Assembly (NCBI GenBank): GCA_039707465.1
Contig: CM077645.1
Coordinates: forward strand, 64,005,350 to 64,069,349
DNA: 64,000 nt
Reading direction: 5' to 3'
From: Rhabdophis nuchalis
Lineage: Eukaryota > Chordata > Lepidosauria > Squamata > Natricidae
The notes under the pieces are model-generated. The model searched no databases. It saw only the letters and a list, made by a program, of their open reading frames with translations, and had not been told where the DNA came from. Position numbers and translations under genes: made by a program. Positions 13,253 to 55,906 of the stretch are shown one piece after another; the first letter of the stretch is position 1; the number at the start of each line of letters is the position of its first letter.

Positions 13253-13953
13253 ATACAGGTGAAAGTCGAAAAATTAGAATATGGTGCAAAAGTTCATTTA
13301 TTTCAGTAATGCAACTTAAAAGGTGAAACTAATATAGGAGATAAGACTCATTACATGCAAAGCAAGATAGTTCAAGCTGTGATTTGTCGTAATTGTGATG
13401 ATTATGGTGTACAGCTCAGGAAAACCCCAAATCCACAATCTCAGAAAATTATAATGTTACATGCAATCAATAAAACAAGGATTGTACATAGAACAATATC
13501 GGACCTCTGAAAAGTATAAGCCTGCATATGTGCTCAGTACTTGGTTTGGGCCCCTTTTGCAGCAATTACTGCCTCAATGCAGCGTGGCATGGAAGCTATC
13601 AACCTGTGGCACTGCTGAGGTGTTATGGAAGACCAGGATGCTTCAATAGCAGCCTTCAGCTCTTCTGCATTGTTCAGCGTCACGTCTCTCATCTTTCTCT
13701 TGGCAATGCCCCATAGATTCTCTGTGGGTTCAGGTCAGGTGAGTTTGCTGGGCAATCAAGCACAGTAATCCCACATTCATTGAACCAGGTTTTGGTGCTT
13801 TTGGCAGTATGGGCAGATGCCAAGTCCTGCTGGAAAATGAAGTCAGCATCCCCATAAAGCTTGTCTGCAGAAGGAAGCATGAAGTGCTCCAAAATCTCCT
13901 GATAGACGGCTGTGTTGCCCCTGGACTTAATGAAGCACAGTGGTCCAAAGTCC
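13253..13953 (-). mobile_element. Tc1/mariner element, 3' half
   Basis: The low-coordinate end starts 'caggtgaaagtcgaaaaatt', a typical Tc1 terminal repeat with sub-repeats (gaaaatta at 13444). The transposase C-terminus reads inward on the minus strand. The upstream end is not present in this orientation: it breaks at about 13953, where a piece in the opposite orientation begins. Confidence 0.85.
13534..13953 (-). pseudogene. Tc1 transposase C-terminal fragment, frameshifted
   Basis: Minus-strand translation shows GPLCFIKS, the block around the second catalytic Asp (DFIFQQDLASAHTAKSTKTWF) and DCPANSPDLNP just before the third acidic position. Immediately after DLNP the frame shifts; the expected ENLWG(I) block lies in the neighbouring frame, with a stop near 13534. 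The DNA-binding N-terminus and first catalytic Asp are absent here. DDE transposases of this family cut and paste between TA dinucleotides; this copy is inactive. Confidence 0.85.
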
Positions 13954-13954
13954 T

Positions 13955-14160
13955 GTTGCTCAGTGGTCCAAAGTCCTCTTTTCTGATGAGAGCAACTTTT
14001 GCATCTCATTTGAAAACCAAGGACCCAGAGTGTGGAGGAAGAATGGAGAGGCACACACTGCAAGATGCTTGAAGTCCAGTGTGAAGTTTCCACACTCTGT
14101 GTTGATTTGAAGGAGCCATGTCATCTGCTGATGTTGGTCCACTGTGCTTCATTAAGGCCC
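13955..14160 (+). pseudogene. Tc1 transposase middle fragment in opposite orientation
   Basis: Plus strand reads WSKVLFSDESNF (first catalytic Asp), RVWRKNGE, HSVL, GAMSSADVGPLCFIKS. The GPLCFIKS block is therefore present twice, once per strand (13915-13940 minus, 14127-14155 plus). It is preceded by a direct repeat of gtggtccaaagtcct. It may be half of the same insertion inverted, or a second copy. Confidence 0.8.
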
Positions 14161-31332: not shown

Positions 31333-32249
31333 AAATACTTTGGCCAACTAGAGACACGTTTCCGGTTTTGGAGGCGACGGTCGTGTTTTCCTACACGTCT
31401 GTCGCTGGGTTCTCTTGATGGGCGCCTTCGGGGGCAGGGGGGGCGTGAAGAGCCCCCCTCCATAAGGGCGGTTGCGGTGAGACCCCCACTTCGACGGTGG
31501 TCGGGGGGCATCCCGCTGCGCCGTAGGAGCCAAGAGACGGAGTGCGGGGGGAATGTTTTCATCTTCGCTGAAGGAGCCGGAACAGATGGAGGATTTCGCA
31601 CAGAAACAGAAATACCGGGGTTGAATGGCTGCGCCGAGACTCCGGATTAGTTATGCATGGAATGTGAGTTATTTACCTTGATTTTCTACATTCAATTTTT
31701 GAAAAGAAGAAATAGAGGGGGGAATTAGAAACCCCCCCACTTGGAAATAAAAGCAGCATTTGGAAATCGCCCCCGCGATCGGGAGAGAGTGAAAGTGACA
31801 TCCGATTGACTGTTAGTAAAAGGAAATGTATCATTAAGCAAGGAATTGCTGTAAAAACATTCCATCTGAGTCTTGCTACAGTTACAATGAACTTGTTATA
31901 AACTTTCACTCCTTTCACCACTGCCAGTGAGGTGGAAAGATGGTGCTTCTTTGTTCCCAGAAGAGAAAGTTTTTTTGATTATAAACATTCCTCCAGTTTA
32001 ACAAGATAAGCAAAAATAACGTAAAATATATAAAAGAGCCTACTCAAGTGACTTTCAGCATTCTCTCCTATTGTGAAACCTTCCCTTTTTTTTTTCTTTT
32101 GGACAATACAATTTGATTTCTTCTCTGGACTTTCTAAAAACAATTTGAACTATAACAAGGGTTTGTCTTTGTCTTGGACTTCACAGACTGCCTGCCCACC
32201 GATGCCATATTTTTAAATTTTCTTTTCATAAAGACTTAAAACTTTAATT

Positions 32250-32543
32250 ATGGCAACAAGAAAGCCTCCACCTGGTAAATCATCTTCAGCACCATCATCT
32301 ACAAAACCAAGCCCTACGTTACAGACAAAAATCACCACAATGCTGCAGAAGGAAACAGAAGCAGAGGAACCTAAATCAACATCGGTAGATGAGATGTTTC
32401 AGAAAATAATGAATGAAATACAACAAATTCGGAAAGACAACTTAAGCACAAGACTGGAACTGTTGGAGGCACAAAGAGAAATAACAAATAATAAGCAAAA
32501 GATTGAGGGGTTGGAGGGAGGGGCAGTTGGTATGAAGAGATAA
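32250..32543 (+). pseudogene. ORF1p N-terminal part of element A
   Basis: Starts MATRKPPPGK with a basic Ser/Pro/Thr-rich leader, then a heptad-like segment from about residue 48 (VDEMFQKIMNEIQQIRKDNL...LELLEAQREI) consistent with the L1 ORF1p coiled coil that drives trimerisation. It ends EGLEGGAVGMKR and a stop, where B has EGGLVGAKGELKN. The frame shift or stop lies just before the B insertion point (32566). Compared with B, it has about 20 extra residues at the N-terminus. Confidence 0.8.
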
Positions 32544-32565
32544 AGGACTTTAAAAAAGAACTTAT

Positions 32566-34530
32566 CTTCTGGTTCCGCCTTCCAGCGGCGACGGACGAGT
32601 CTTGGGACTCGTCCGCCGTTTTGTTCTTTTTTCTGCCCCCCAAAGGGGGTGAGGCACCCCCTTTTTGGGGGCCTTCCATAGGGCTGGCTCGCCTGGGTCT
32701 GTTTATCCCAGCGGCGGCGGGTAAACGGCCCTTGTCTTCGGCCTAGGTGAGAGGAGACATGCTGCGGGGGGTTTTCCCTTCGCCAATGGAGGACGGCAAC
32801 GAACGAGGAATTTGAAAAGAGCTGAGTGTTCGGGTCGGAAGGCTTCCCGGGGCTTTGGCGGCGAGGTGAAGAGTGAGTGATTTATTTATTTGTGCTGGCA
32901 GCCTGGATTGAAAGAACATAGAGGGGGGTGTTTGTTTGCTAAAACCCCCCTCGGATTTAAAGCGGCGCTTGGAAATGGCTCCTCATTGCGAGGAAGCGGA
33001 CATTTCGCATCCGGACTGTTTTGAAGGCAAGTGAAAGTGTTTTGCGGCTTGTTTCTTTACGATGTATCTAAGTCCGGCTGGCTTGAAACAATTTTTCTTT
33101 TGTTATTTTCTCCTGCTGGCTCTCAGACTGGGCGGTGGAGGATGGCTGCCCTTTGTTCCTGAATGATATTTTTGTTTATGGAAAATTACCAACATCTCTT
33201 TGTGATTTGGACTCCCTCTCTCTACTAATGAAGAAATTTCTGGATTAATTGATTCCTTCCCTGGAGTGCCTTCTTTGCTATAATTATTGACTGTGAAAAG
33301 TGTTTCTCTTCTGGGTCTTGAACTTTTTACAACTCTCATTTGAACTTTTCTCCTGATCTGCTTCAACGGCCCCACCCAAAAAACGCCATCTTAGTGGCAC
33401 TGACTTTAACAGCTTACCATGGCATCAAAATCAGAATTGGCAGGATTGGAACAAAGAATGACGTCAATGGAATCAGTGTTACAAGCTTTGGTGCAGGAAA
33501 TTAATGCTTTCAGAGAAGATAATAGCAGCTTCAAGAAGGATCTTTTGGAAACACGGAAGCAAGTGCTGGAGAACACACAGAAGACTGAGGAGCTGGAAGG
33601 GGGTTTGGTTGGGGCAAAGGGAGAGCTTAAAAATGTTAGTAGTGAGGTTGGAGAACTGACTGGGCATATGTCTAGGATGGATTTTGAAAGGATGTCATAT
33701 TTTTTAAGTTTTCAGAACATTTCTGAAGAATCTGGTGAATGTCTTCCTGAACTCATGAGTACAATTTTAGCAGACTATTTACATAAACCTAAAGATGAGA
33801 TCAGGGGGGACATTGACCTAGTCTACAGAATAAATTCGACATATGCCAGGATAAATGAAGTACCCAGAGAGATACATATTAAATTTGTTAGAAGGTCTAC
33901 CAGAGAGGGAATTTTGAAGGCGCAGAGAGAGGGGCCGTTAATTTACCAACAAAAGGAAGTCGCCATCTTGAAGCAGATCCCAAAAAAGATTAGAGAGATG
34001 AGAAGGAGGTATTCCTTCTTATCCAAAAAATTGTTTGACCAAGGGATTTGGTTTAAGTGGGCGATGCCAGAAGGGATGTTGGTATTCTGGGATGAAGGAA
34101 GAGTAAGGATTAAAACAGTTGTTGAGGCAGAAGCCCTTCTTAAAAAACATTCCTCTGTCCTGGAGGACGATTCAGGGGGGGCAGAGGGGGCACGGTCCCG
34201 CCCGCTGGGGGCCAGGGAGGAGAAAAAGAAGATACAATTGCCAAGAGACTTAGATCAAAAAAATAACTTTGCTTTTTTATTAACATTGTATAACCTTTAT
34301 ATCTGGATGTTTGTACACAACTGCCAGCATAGAATTGAGAATTTTGGAAACATGTACTTATTTTCACCTTGTAGTATTTTTGAAAAATGTTTTTCTTTAA
34401 TGTTTTATTATGAAGCCCTGGAAGGGCCAATGATCCCGACGCGAAAGTTCTTAAAATGTTTCTGTATCACTTATCCTACCCTTTTGGAAAATGGTAAAAA
34501 CCAATAAAACTTTTTCAATATATATATATA
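32566..34530 (+). mobile_element. ORF1-only L1-type element B, nested in A
   Basis: 1965 bp bounded by a 14-bp duplication aaaaaagaacttat (32552-32565 and 34531-34544) that splits element A's ORF1. Structure: GC-rich 5' UTR 32566-33418, ORF1 from 33419, 3' UTR with AATAAA at 34503 and a TA/A-rich tail. The A-rich duplication fits L1 endonuclease target choice. It was inserted after A, and its ORF1 is better preserved. No ORF2 is present between ORF1 and the 3' UTR. Confidence 0.9.
33419..34507 (+). CDS. L1-type ORF1p (RNA-binding chaperone) of element B, C-terminally extended
   Basis: 362 codons. Residues about 8-85 form a coiled coil (LAGLEQRMTSMESVLQALV, LLETRKQVLEN). Residues about 95-175 look like the L1 ORF1p RRM (FERMSYFLSFQNISE, DIDLVYRINS, PREIHIKFVRRSTREGILKA). 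Residues about 180-250 match the C-terminal domain (VAILKQIPKKIREMRRRY, WAMPEGMLVFWDEGRVRI, EAEALLKK). In L1 biology this protein trimerises, coats its own RNA and aids target-primed reverse transcription. Compared with element A, whose ORF1 ends in KRLRSQK and a stop, a small indel near 34225 shifts the frame, so the last 80 or so residues (from about 280, hydrophobic and untypical) are 3' UTR sequence read through. Likely non-functional now, but the core is intact. Start chosen at the first ATG after the 5' UTR. Confidence 0.85.
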   Translation: MASKSELAGLEQRMTSMESVLQALVQEINAFREDNSSFKKDLLETRKQVLENTQKTEELEGGLVGAKGELKNVSSEVGELTGHMSRMDFERMSYFLSFQNISEESGECLPELMSTILADYLHKPKDEIRGDIDLVYRINSTYARINEVPREIHIKFVRRSTREGILKAQREGPLIYQQKEVAILKQIPKKIREMRRRYSFLSKKLFDQGIWFKWAMPEGMLVFWDEGRVRIKTVVEAEALLKKHSSVLEDDSGGAEGARSRPLGAREEKKKIQLPRDLDQKNNFAFLLTLYNLYIWMFVHNCQHRIENFGNMYLFSPCSIFEKCFSLMFYYEALEGPMIPTRKFLKCFCITYPTLLENGKNQ

Positions 34531-34544
34531 AAAAAAGAACTTAT

Positions 34545-35155
34545 AAATGTTACTGATCATATGTCTAGAATTGATTTTGAACGTATGTCTTTTTTTTTAA
34601 GATTTCAAAATGTCCCAGAATCAGATACTGAGAATTTAAAAGAATTAATGGCTACGATCTTAGCGGATTATACCAAAAAAAAAAAAGAACACATCTGGGG
34701 GGACATTGATCTGATATATAGAATCAATTCAGCATATGCCAGGATAAATAATGTACCCAGAGAGATACACATTAAATTTATAAGAAGGTCAACAAGGGAT
34801 GAGATCCTGAGAGCGCAAAGAGGGGGCCCTTTGATATATCAGCAAAACGAGATAGCCATATTGAAGCAAATCCCAAAAAAAAATCCGAGATATAAGAAGG
34901 AAATATTCTTTCTTATAGAAAAAATTACATAACAAGGGGGTTTGGTTCAAATGGCTGATGCCCGAAGGAATGTTGGTGTTCTTGGAGGGAGGAAGAGTTA
35001 GAATGAAAACAGTAGAAGAGGCAGAGGCCTTTCTTAAAAAATATTCCTCAAACCTAGATGACGAAGACATGGGAATGGGAGGAACCGCAGCTCTGCCTGC
35101 TGGTAGGGTGGAAGAAGAAGAAACAATAGCAAAGAGACTCAGATCACAAAAATGA
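34545..35155 (+). pseudogene. ORF1p RRM and C-terminal part of element A
   Basis: Continues element A after B. HMSRIDFERMSFFLRFQNVPES, DIDLIYRINSAYARINNVPREIHIKFIRRSTRDEIL and IAILKQIPKK match B's ORF1 in order. The frame breaks near 34880 in an A-run (34561-34932 is one frame, 34958-35155 another), and the last part PEGMLVFLEGGRVRM...EAEAFLKK ends in RLRSQK and a stop. Element A is thus older and more decayed than B. Confidence 0.85.
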
Positions 35156-35558
35156 TTTTTTTTGTGTGTTTTTTTTATGTACGGTAATTCCTGTAAGGAT
35201 GTTAATAGAAACAAAATAACTGAATGTATGAGAGTTTTGATTATGAAACGTATGACTTGAAATGTATGTACCCCTTCCTATTTTTTCTACTTTCTAATGA
35301 ATTTAACCTCGAAAGAAGACTCGGAGGCGGTCACCAACTCCGATATGGAAGCTCTAAAATATTGTTAAAATACCCCATTTACCCCTTTGCTTTCATAAAA
35401 TTGTAAAACTAATAAAAAATACTTAAAAAAATACTTTGGCCAACTAATGAGAAAGAAGGACTCGGTAGAAGAGCCTAATGCTGGGAAAGATTGAGCGCAA
35501 AAGAAGAAGGGAATGACAGAGAATGAGGTGGCTGGATGGAGTCACCGAAGCAGTTGGC

Positions 35559-52330: not shown

Positions 52331-52626
52331 TGAGGCCCTGGTGTGGGGTGGCGAGCCTGCGACGCGGTGAGGCCCTGTGGAGGCCTGATAGAACAGTGGA
52401 GGGAATTTTCCTCCCCCCCCCCAGGACTCCCTGATAAAACATCTACGGGGAGGGGGGGCGAGAGCGAAGCAAGGCCAGCCCAAAGGAAAAACAGCTCCAG
52501 CCACCCCGTGGAAAGCCTCTACCCGAGGAAGAACTGACTGACTCTTATGATCTATTTTCCCTGTTGATTTGACTTGCACTTTATCTAGGCGTTTCCTCCC
52601 TTTAAAGCCAGCAATGGAGCCACGGG

Positions 52627-53388
52627 ATGGTTTTTTATTCAAGGTCTGACCTCCTCGATCTACGAGAGTCCCCCCTCTCGCAGGTTTGGCCCCTTAGTTT
52701 ATCTCGGGCCCACCTCAAGGATGGGTTAATTAATCCAGAGAGGTGGAAAAAACGCAAGCTCAGGGGGTTTTTAAATAAATTTTTAATTAGGCTTTTAAGG
52801 CCTTCTGGGGTGGGGGAGGGGTTTAAAAAAAGATATAGACAGATGGAGATTGAAACAGTGATCAATAGTAAGGGCCAGGATAGCAGTCGACGGCGGGAAG
52901 CGGAAGGCGAAAGGAAGGGGGATACTCGAGTCGTTCCACAGGAGGGCATACCAATTCAGAGGGTCGTGGGGAGGGGCAGGACCGAGGGGAGACAATTTTC
53001 ATCCTCCCGGTTGGTGGCACGTAGCCGTTGGTTGCAAACGGTCGGGTGCCACAACCCCCGCAGGCTAGGTGGCCAGGGAATACAGAGCCATGGTCTGCGG
53101 CTGATGTTTTGCAACGCCAGGTCCGTTGTCAACAAAGCCCCCCTCATTAGTGACCTTGTGTCAGAGGGGGAGCCGGACCTGGTAGGAATTGCGGAAACCT
53201 GGTTGGGCCACGAGGGAGGACTTCCCCTCATTGAAATGTGCCCAACAGGCTACCGCGCATTTCATCAGCCGCGGGCCCTAGGCAGGGGTGGTGGGGTAGC
53301 GGTCATTATTAAGGAAGGTCTTGAGCCGAGAGAGACCACTGTGCCTCAGACTACCGGCTGTGAGTCCCTCTGCGTGAAGTGGGCCTAG
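52627..53388 (+). pseudogene. L2 LINE ORF, N-terminal part and start of the endonuclease
   Basis: About 150 residues of basic, Arg/Lys-rich sequence precede the endonuclease start at LRLMFCNARSVVNKA (N of motif I). The catalytic glutamate is seen in GIAETWLGHEGG, then GYRAFHQPRALGRGGGVAVII. The frame ends in CVKWA and a stop, and homologous coding continues at once in another frame at 53379. The LINE endonuclease nicks target DNA to prime reverse transcription. Here the domain is split by an apparent 1-nt deletion near 53385. Confidence 0.85.
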
Positions 53389-55625
53389 GGAGGCAGTTGG
53401 GCTTGCTGGTTGTATACCTGGCTCCCCGCTATGTAGCAGCAGCCCTGCCCGAGCTCCTGGAGGTGATCGCTACGGTGGCAGTTGAGACCCCCAGACTTAT
53501 AGTCATGGGGGACTTTAACCTGCCATCGTTGGGCGAATCATCCGTGGCAGCTCGGGAGTTCATAGCTTCCATGACGGCCATGGACCTGACCCAAGTAATT
53601 CAGGGCCCCACCCACGAGGGTGGACATACGCCGGATCTCATCTTTGTCTCGGGCCAATGGAAGAGTGATCTGGGTACAGGGGACATAGTCATCACACCCT
53701 TGTCATGGTCAGACCACTCACTTCTCCGGCTCGACTTTCCGACCGCTGCTCCCCTCCGCGGGGAGGCGGAACCAGAGTTACCAATCTGGTACCGCCCCAG
53801 GCGCTTGATGGACCCGGATGGGTTCCAGACAGCGCTTGGGCCATTTCCTGTATCCCTGACCCGCGCCCCGATGGAGGACCTCACGGCCGCATGGAATAGT
53901 GCGGCCGTGGGAGCCTTAGATCGGGTCGCGCCCTTGCGGCCTCTCTTGCGGCGCCGAACCACCCTGGCTCCTTGGTTTACTGAGGAGCTGCGGGTGATGA
54001 AACGCCGCAAGAGATGCCTAGAGAGTAGATGGAGGTCTAGCCGCTCTGAATCTGACCGGACACAGGTAAGAGCCCATTTACGGACTTACATTGTGGCGCT
54101 GAGGGTGGCCAAACGTCATCATTGTGCCACTCTCATAGCATCCGCAGAAAACCGCCCTGCCGCCCTGTTTAGGGTGACCCGTGCCCTCCTTCAACAGAGG
54201 GAACGGGAAGCCCCGCTACAGGGTAGAGCAGAGGAATTTGTGACTTTTCTGCAGGAGAAAACCGCCCAGATACAGAGTGAGCTGGCCCCCATTCATGGCC
54301 CAGTGGGATGCCACGAGAGAGATCTTGTTTGGGAGGAGTTTGACCCCGTTACTTCCGAGGATATGGACAGGCTACGTGGGCGACTGCGAGCCACCACATG
54401 TTTATTGGACCCGTGCCCCTCCTGGCTTGTACTGGCATCCTGGGAGGTGACACGAGGCTGGCTCCAAGAGGTTGTCAACGCATCCTTGGGTGAGGGTTCC
54501 TTGCCTGCCTCCCTAAAAGAGGCGATGGTGAGGCCCCTCCTCAAGAAGCCCTCTTTGGACCCAGCTCTTTTAAACAACTACCGTCCAGTCTCCAACCTTC
54601 CCTTTTTGGCGAAGGTTGTCGAGAGTGTGGTGACACAACAGTTTCCCTGTCACCTGGAGGAAATTGACTATCTAGATCCGCGCCAGTCCGGCTTTCGGCC
54701 CGGGCATAGCACCGAGACGGCATTGGTCGCGTTGGTAGATGATCTCTGGAGGGCCAGAGATGGGGGATGTTCCTCCATCCTGGTCCTATTAGACCTCTCG
54801 GCGGCTTTCGATACCATCGACCATGGTATCCTATTGCATCGGCTGGGGGGGTTGGGGGTGGGAGGCACCATTTTACGGTGGTTCTCCTCCTACCTCTCTG
54901 GCCGATCGCAATTTGTGCGGGCAGGAGAGCAGAGGTCGACCCCGAGACCCCTCACATGCGGGGTGCCTCAGGGGTCGGTCCTCTCGCCTCTCCTGTTTAA
55001 TGCATACATGAAGCCGCTGGGTGAGATCATCCGTGGTTTTGGGGTAGAGTACCACCTGTACGCTGATGACACCCAGCTGTACATATCTACCCCAAACCAC
55101 CCCAACGATGCCGTAGCGGTGATGTGCCAGTGCCTGGAAGCCGTGCGGATCTGGATGGGAAGTAACGGACTTAGGCTCAACCCGACCAAGACCGAGTGGC
55201 TGTGGTTTCCGGCTGCCCGATTCAACCAGCTCTCTCCAACGCTGGCCATAGGGGGCGAACATCTTGCCCCTGTGGATGGGGCGCGCAATTTGGGTGTCCT
55301 CCTGGATACCCGGCTGTCTATGGAAGAGCAAGTGACAGCCGTGGCCAGGAGGGCGTTTTACCAGGTTCGCCTGGTACGCCAATTGCGCCCCCTATTGGAT
55401 CGGGACGCCCTTCGCACAGTCACTCATGCCCTCGTGACATCCCGACTGGACTACTGTAACTCTTTCTACATGGGGCTCCCCTTGAGGTGCACCCGGAGGC
55501 TTCAGTTAGTTCAGAATGCAGCCGCGCGAGCAATTATGGGGACCACCAGGTTTACCCACGTTACACCGCCTTGCGCGAGCTGCACTGGCTACCTGTCATC
55601 TTCCGGGTGTGCTTCAAGGTGTTAA
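53379..55625 (+). CDS. L2 LINE endonuclease C-terminal part and reverse transcriptase
   Basis: 748 uninterrupted codons. The start overlaps the preceding frame; the rest of the endonuclease follows (VMGDFNLPS around residue 42, SDHSLLRLDF around 112). Reverse transcriptase motifs: NNYRPVSNLPFLAKVVE, SGFRPGHSTETAL, VLLDLSAAFDTIDHGIL, GVPQGSVLSPLLFN and catalytic YADDTQLY, then DARNLGVLLDTRLSM-type and DYCNSFYMGLP downstream. SAAFDTIDHGIL and the short PLG...YHLYADD spacing fit L2 rather than CR1. The last 25 or so residues (PPCASCTGYLSSSG) are out of frame: the true C-terminus is at 55570-55906. The start codon shown is simply the first in-frame ATG; the native protein would begin in the upstream frame. 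RT is otherwise intact. Confidence 0.88.
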   Translation: MGLGRQLGLLVVYLAPRYVAAALPELLEVIATVAVETPRLIVMGDFNLPSLGESSVAAREFIASMTAMDLTQVIQGPTHEGGHTPDLIFVSGQWKSDLGTGDIVITPLSWSDHSLLRLDFPTAAPLRGEAEPELPIWYRPRRLMDPDGFQTALGPFPVSLTRAPMEDLTAAWNSAAVGALDRVAPLRPLLRRRTTLAPWFTEELRVMKRRKRCLESRWRSSRSESDRTQVRAHLRTYIVALRVAKRHHCATLIASAENRPAALFRVTRALLQQREREAPLQGRAEEFVTFLQEKTAQIQSELAPIHGPVGCHERDLVWEEFDPVTSEDMDRLRGRLRATTCLLDPCPSWLVLASWEVTRGWLQEVVNASLGEGSLPASLKEAMVRPLLKKPSLDPALLNNYRPVSNLPFLAKVVESVVTQQFPCHLEEIDYLDPRQSGFRPGHSTETALVALVDDLWRARDGGCSSILVLLDLSAAFDTIDHGILLHRLGGLGVGGTILRWFSSYLSGRSQFVRAGEQRSTPRPLTCGVPQGSVLSPLLFNAYMKPLGEIIRGFGVEYHLYADDTQLYISTPNHPNDAVAVMCQCLEAVRIWMGSNGLRLNPTKTEWLWFPAARFNQLSPTLAIGGEHLAPVDGARNLGVLLDTRLSMEEQVTAVARRAFYQVRLVRQLRPLLDRDALRTVTHALVTSRLDYCNSFYMGLPLRCTRRLQLVQNAAARAIMGTTRFTHVTPPCASCTGYLSSSGCASRC

Positions 55626-55906
55626 TTATCATCTTCAAAGCGCTCCATGGCTCGGGACCTAGCTATCTGCGAGATCGGATCCTGCCCCATACATCCTCAC
55701 GACCGATTCGCTCCCACAGAGAGGGACTTCTCCGGGTGCCGTCCACTAGACTTTGTCAGCGGGCGACGCCCAGGGGAAGGGCTCTCTCTGTGGCGGGCCC
55801 GGCCCTCTGGAACGACCTTCCCCCTGATATCAGAACGACCACTGACCTCCGCTCCTTCCGTACGAAATTGAAGACCTATTTCTTTCGACTGGCCGGCCTT
55901 GAATAA
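55560..55906 (+). pseudogene. L2 LINE ORF C-terminus in the shifted frame
   Basis: YTALRELHWLPVIFRVCFKVLIIIFKALHGSGPSYLRDRI, HREGLLRVPS, ALSVAGPALWNDLPPDIRTTTDL and LKTYFFRLAGLE, then a stop at 55904-55906. This is the conserved post-RT C-terminal region of L2/CR1-group LINEs. It is separated from the RT by an apparent 1-nt loss near 55570. Confidence 0.88.

Follow-up and report, generated by a model that had tools for sequence, protein, structure and literature searches.

How did two L1-type retrotransposons, one inserted into the other and clearly different in sequence, both come to lack the second open reading frame (ORF2)? The question is raised by a 64,000-nucleotide stretch of the Rhabdophis nuchalis genome (assembly GCA_039707465.1, contig CM077645.1, positions 64,005,350 to 64,069,349, forward strand; hereafter the window), in which element B lies within element A and each element has a 5′ untranslated region (UTR) with a GC- and CpG-rich start, a single open reading frame (ORF1) and a short 3′ UTR with AATAAA. 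A first reading of the letters, made without database searches (the sequence-only reading), proposed that the loss of ORF2 was ancestral to both elements rather than the outcome of two deletions, and the junction common to A and B, together with diverged relatives, supports that proposal. With a probability of roughly 0.8, we regard A and B as subfamilies of an old, diversified, non-autonomous L1 clade that lost ORF2 before the two split, with ORF1 protein (ORF1p) acting in cis and ORF2p in trans.

We searched the 1.92 Gb assembly containing the window, scoring only the best candidates of each search: 40 of 7260 for B, 40 of 5295 for A and 134 of 32789 for a related ORF1, P0003. The B query comprised ORF1 and the 3′ UTR (1091 bp), and the window's own copy is among the 40. 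These copies are 96-100% identical, 39/40 cover the whole query (one reaches position 1074), and all 40, each of which was fetched, are colinear across the junction between ORF1 and the 3′ UTR. The 5′ end is reached by 31 of them; ORF1 has exactly 282 codons in 26 of the 40, and among 27 listed B copies it ends in ...TIAKRLRSKK in 22. Because the mean pairwise difference is 2.2% (38 copies), B is young. Most B copies have runs of A past their end. Target-site duplications were sought in 37 copies, leaving out L009 (which has an inverted partner) and L004 and L011 (which share the flank of L008); exact duplications of at least 9 bp, with a median of 15, were present in 29 of them. The duplication begins with AA in 22 of these 29, and 28 are distinct, L030 and L040 being alike, perhaps as one insertion that was itself duplicated. 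The flank common to L004, L008 and L011 (G000:C8, 48.68-48.84 Mb) apparently reflects a single insertion that was duplicated locally. At L045:388-1490 lies a member of a further B-like subfamily, whose first 1106 bp are 79% identical to B; it is apparently interrupted by a 5′-truncated element of group C, described below.

Family A was sought with the 3′ part of the element (543 bp), again with the window's own copy included. All 40 scored copies span the junction, at 93-100% identity, and two extra rows are partial second matches. Among nine further A loci that we read, eight run contiguously from ORF1 to the 3′ UTR, including the site that B occupies in the window, and one has a deletion over it; ORF2 is absent from all nine. 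Two of these loci, L065 and L066, retain an open frame of about 300 codons, and both, like L073, carry the N-terminus of A's ORF1. The lack of ORF2 that the sequence-only reading had noticed in A and B thus extends to the scored copies of both families, and the check it had proposed, a search for many copies with the same junction, gave 40/40 for each.

The diverged relatives agree with this picture. The P0003 ORF1 is 41-44% identical to B, and the 134 scored matches are 46-56% identical to P0003. We picked ten of these and read 1.3 kb downstream. ORF1 terminates near ...LR(S)QK in all ten, and in none did motif and visual inspection find a frame resembling endonuclease (EN) or reverse transcriptase (RT) before the element ended; ORF2 in most relatives, which the sequence-only reading had named as the pattern of chance deletion, is not what these loci contain. 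The distance from the end of ORF1 to AATAAA is 204-227 nt in 8/8 measurable relatives (A 258, B 239), one of which, L081, has lost the stop itself. No AATAAA with a tail was found in L074, and the ORF1 end of L083 was read by eye. The 3′ UTRs of the eight are homologous to that of A (z 4.2-9.5) and to that of B (z 3.0-7.1). L1 ORF2-like sequence was seen by eye past the tails of L075 and L077. The same L1 sequence lies on either side of L075, with 22-mers bearing one mismatch; L077 has an L1 ORF1 upstream and an EN-like start downstream, with a 15-mer repeated with one mismatch. Because the host L1 flanks both sides with repeated target sequence, these two are insertions into other L1s. At L085/L075, where a clade member sits in L1 ORF2, the target duplication is roughly 100 bp by eye, far above the usual 15 bp. 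No ORF2 with EN and RT was found in A, B or the relatives read. Because the scored copies have the same junction and no EN/RT-like frame was seen in the ten relatives read, loss of ORF2 before the split of A and B is the simplest reading. No homologous loci were found in viral contigs or prokaryote genome contigs, nor in plasmids and phages, which were searched with B ORF1 only.

The untranslated regions of A and B had been described as homologous, and comparison with shuffled sequences bears this out. The 5′ UTRs give a local score of 962, and 500 dinucleotide shuffles reach at most 601 (z 12.5); taken by itself, the last third is weak (z 2.7; 5/500 shuffles equally good). The 3′ UTRs give 348 against at most 299 (500 shuffles, z 5.7). 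The first 100 bp past the ORF1 stop align between the two elements (1/500 shuffles equally good); the middle, 90-180 bp past the stop, is not significant alone (127/1000). With strict gaps, identity is 58% (5′) and 62% (3′) versus shuffle maxima of 55% and 61%, and identities with loose gaps are uninformative because shuffled sequences reach equal values. Six pieces were folded as RNA in search of a conserved 3′ UTR hairpin, and with z values from -1.76 to 1.48 their folds were not clearly stabler than those of shuffled sequences.

Complete L1s with EN and RT domains occur in the same genome (L050/L061 and L057/L063), and L041 has an EN-like frame by eye, without a Pfam match. The 18 nt that precede the tail of B, AATAAAACTTTTTCAATA, recur exactly at the end of L063, where A's follow (BLAST E 8e-5). 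With at most two mismatches, this end is present in 38/40 B loci and in 2/23 of loci L041-L063 (L060 and L063, both exact), and in none of the shuffles of loci L041-L063 (443 kb in all). L057/L063 is therefore a candidate partner L1 of B. Two other sets of short matches were set aside: A-rich matches of 15 bp between the 3′ end of A and both L041 and L046 (E 0.003), that in L041 lying inside a reading frame rather than at the end of an element, and that of the B 3′ UTR to L044 (19 bp, 89%, E 0.01). A search with a lizard ORF1, for which the best 115 of 32443 candidates were scored and 20 loci cut, yielded 11 loci of a young group C, 95-99% alike (L047, L048, L053, L056, L058, L045, L051, L054, L055, L059 and L060). 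Their ORF1 is open over about 360-380 aa, and neither EN nor RT was seen in the approximately 1.2 kb read after it. By eye, 5/11 carry a C-terminal remnant of ORF2 about 0.85 kb after ORF1, and in 6/11 the 3′ region resembles the one in L063, which bears ORF2. Because of these remnants and the 18-nt end in L060, group C looks like an independent loss of ORF2 from the L057/L063 lineage.

Group C illustrates how A and B might instead have arisen, as separate ORF2-deletion derivatives of ORF2-bearing L1s, perhaps by repeated splicing or internal deletion, with any constraint on ORF1 dating from life in complete L1s. The weak middle of the A/B 3′ UTR alignment favours this origin, as does the L1 hit by L077 (L086), which is decayed, bears ORF2 and has a related ORF1. 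In this single example, ORF1 is nearest to the ORF1-only clade: its first piece matches P0003 at E 2e-12, A at 5e-10 and B at 1e-8, with other complete L1s and group C at 4e-5 or weaker, and its second piece gives no such separation. This L1 is possibly a relative of the lineage that lost ORF2. Separate deletions would not be expected to leave A, B and eight relatives with homologous 3′ UTRs and a similar length from ORF1 to tail; no ORF2 remnant was seen in any of these elements, and ORF1 is under selection within B, in a sample where 40/40 copies lack ORF2. We consider this origin unlikely.

What does ORF1 encode, and is the product maintained? The sequence-only reading had assigned an L1-type ORF1 to both elements, and structure modelling, which found the L1-type fold (coiled coil, RRM and C-terminal domain (CTD)) in the predicted proteins, confirms that assignment. 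A profile of 15 aligned relatives finds human L1 ORF1p at E 3.5e-8, and a profile of the five nearest relatives only at E 0.01; the named relatives are lizard proteins. The assignment stands less well at the level of the Pfam family and the frames themselves. PF02994 matches a piece of A at 20.2 bits, under the curated cut-off of 22.4, does not list B, and matches 6/15 aligned relatives at E<=0.1. Both window frames are broken. That of A meets a stop codon at 32541-32543, changes frame near 34885 and has another stop in the next frame; that of B shifts near the C-terminus, which produces a 362-aa frame extending into the 3′ UTR past the family stop position at 34264-34266.

The substitutions point to constraint on the protein. 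Between the window ORF1s of A and B, the synonymous rate (dS) is 1.54 and the nonsynonymous rate (dN) 0.22, a rough ratio of 0.15 over 189 codons (bootstrap 0-0.25), versus 0.53-1.14 in neutral simulations of the same comparison; two genomic copies give dS 1.70, dN 0.29 and a similarly rough 0.17 over 274 codons (bootstrap 0-0.27). Within B (38 copies), singletons comprise 114 nonsynonymous and 52 synonymous changes, and variants in at least three copies 10 and 16 (Fisher p=0.004). Without CpG sites the counts are 107:44 and 8:11 (p=0.018). Judged by these patterns, we show that ORF1 is constrained at the amino-acid level. Constraint speaks to the possibility that ORF1 is dispensable in cis and that the RNA is a mere poly(A) template, like a SINE (short interspersed nuclear element) or a processed pseudogene. 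PMC5753468 describes mobilisation by L1 of other RNAs with 3′ poly(A) tails, and the contrast within B is not significant when doubletons are counted as shared (p=0.10, or 0.08 without CpG), which leaves such a template some room. A dN/dS of 0.15-0.17 over deep divergence would be unexpected of it, as would the depletion of amino-acid changes common to at least three B copies if ORF1p were idle for its own RNA. We find it quite unlikely.

In a third alternative, a host gene containing an L1 ORF1 domain, comparable to the domesticated L1TD1, gave rise to A and B as processed copies. Gene copies with a 5′ UTR, one reading frame, a polyadenylation signal and target duplications would look alike, and mammals are known to have a domesticated gene of ORF1 origin (PMC4161310). 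A single source gene is hard to reconcile with the many diverged matches, of which the best 134 of 32789 are 46-56% identical to P0003 and the ten read each have their own short 3′ region. The sole gene-like frame (2022 aa, C7:4942678), met without a search aimed at a source gene, runs into an N stretch (501 N in 2201 bases) and ends like a clade member. This origin is very improbable.

Several observations weigh against an ancestral, ORF2-free clade that borrows from present-day L1s. Searches confined to the best-scoring candidates may miss clade members that bear ORF2. The dN/dS ratios are rough, with bootstrap lower ends of 0, because synonymous sites are near saturation; the B copies in the selection test were chosen by similarity to B rather than randomly, and there is the doubleton result given above. 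The partner L1s are a further difficulty. The sequence-only reading had suggested a search for a donor L1 that shares the 3′ UTR, and this was borne out for the 18-nt end of B and not for the rest: the B 3′ UTR as a whole is weakly similar to those of L057/L063 (z 3.7-4.4), its first half shows no similarity to them (z -0.3 and 0.0), and A is without the 18-nt end and without clear similarity to their 3′ UTRs (z 1.4-2.0). The UTRs of the complete L1s L050/L061 and L041/L062 show no similarity to A or B.

With these points taken into account, the ORF2-free clade remains our preferred explanation, and the following cycle would account for its spread. Transcription would start from the GC-rich 5′ UTR, and the RNA would be translated into an RNA-binding protein with the modelled coiled-coil/RRM/CTD fold, which, given the conservation of ORF1, would coat its own RNA in cis. 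A complete L1 would then supply ORF2p in trans, and this enzyme would insert the RNA by target-primed reverse transcription; the hallmarks of such insertion are observed, and the duplications at the insertion sites mostly begin with A's. The 18 nt common to B and an ORF2-bearing L1 probably mark the 3′ end at which the enzyme starts. We speculate, at slightly less than even odds, that this is a self-perpetuating branch of L1 in which one old loss of ORF2 was followed by radiation into several subfamilies within this genome, ORF1p being selected for its own RNA and the elements keeping or copying the short 3′ end of their suppliers.

The closest known system is the mammalian HAL1 (half-L1). It is described as an L1 derivative encoding only ORF1p, with a poly(A) tail and target duplications, that needs the RT and EN of full-length L1 and originated independently several times in mammals (PMC5753468, PMC5322556). 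The snake clade resembles it in having ORF1 without ORF2 at the family level (in scored copies), with target duplications and a 3′ A tail, and mobilisation by the ORF2p of full-length L1 would likewise be expected. It appears to differ from HAL1, as described there, in forming a separate ORF1 sequence group with UTRs of its own and in having its named ORF1 relatives in lizards, and it spans a dS of about 1.5-1.7 between A and B. Autonomous L1s of the same genome have the same ORF1p family, and the L057/L063 type shares the 18 nt before the tail with B; they differ in having EN and RT and, save for the weak B 3′ UTR signal, in UTRs unlike those of A and B. The target-duplication signature of the clade is that of L1 in general. 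SINEs such as Alu are non-autonomous, are mobilised by L1 as parasites of ORF2p and encode no protein; the clade is similarly non-autonomous and presumably dependent on ORF2p, but it encodes and conserves ORF1p. L1TD1 is described as ORF1-derived without ORF2 and is a mammalian host gene (PMC4161310), whereas the clade consists of dispersed elements that carry target duplications of their own. No squamate ORF1-only L1 was named among the titles and abstract openings listed from open-licence papers, and a snake repeat review (PMC8303610) gave no passage on the L1 terms sought in it. ORF1-only L1s are a known kind, exemplified by mammalian HAL1.

Within the window (Table 1), re-measurement agreed with the coordinates first given, with the 1965 bp of B and with the approximately 2.1 kb of A, obtained by subtracting B and one copy of its duplication. 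The target duplications of 18 bp (A) and 14 bp (B) are both exact, as had been reported. Because B sits in the ORF1 of A, A is the older insertion here. The GC-rich 5′ UTRs previously noted were seen again at the start of both; in the first 300 bp of A's, GC is 0.59-0.64 and observed/expected CpG 0.94-1.07, versus 0.31 in the window, and this start may act as a promoter. Both elements have AATAAA, as first described, but of the A-rich ends attributed to them only the short one of A was found: B ends in (AT)n before its duplication. Most relatives have ...CAATATA and then an A run.

Table 1. Nested elements A and B and their parts, in window positions
Feature	Position	Strand	Remarks
Left copy of A's 18 bp target-site duplication	31333-31350		exact match to 35429-35446
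Element A, interrupted by B and one copy of B's target duplication	31351-35428	+	
A 5′ UTR	31351-32249	+	homologous to B 5′ UTR
A ORF1, N-terminal part	32250-32543	+	stop 22 bp before B insertion
Left copy of B's 14 bp target-site duplication	32552-32565		site CTTT/AAAA
Element B, 1965 bp, full-length ORF1-only element	32566-34530	+	colinear genomic copies
B 5′ UTR	32566-33418	+	start GC- and CpG-rich
B ORF1 region (coiled coil, RRM, C-terminal domain)	33419-34266	+	modelled fold
B 3′ UTR	34267-34530	+	AATAAAACTTTTTCAATA at 34503-34520, then AT tail
Right copy of B's target-site duplication	34531-34544		exact match to 32552-32565
A ORF1, C-terminal part (RRM, CTD)	34545-35155	+	TGA at 35153-35155
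A 3′ UTR, AATAAA, short A-rich end	35156-35428	+	homologous to those of B and eight diverged relatives
Right copy of A's target-site duplication	35429-35446		exact match to 31333-31350

Two other elements were seen in the window: at 52606-55906 (+), a LINE (long interspersed nuclear element), CR1-like by eye, which has GC-rich tandem repeats in its 5′ region and reading frames that match RVT_1 and, just under its cut-off, Exo_endo_phos; and at 13689-14120 (-), a DDE transposase fragment (DDE_3, under its cut-off), Tc1/mariner-like by eye.

If a long-lived, branched, ORF1-only clade does exist in a vertebrate group other than mammals, an L1 lineage is not necessarily doomed by losing its reverse transcriptase, and selection acting in cis can maintain ORF1p alone. 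With ORF2p supplied by another element, the clade would also be a natural experiment on how ORF1p serves the RNA that encodes it, and on the minimum shared 3′ end with which one element may use the machinery of another L1.

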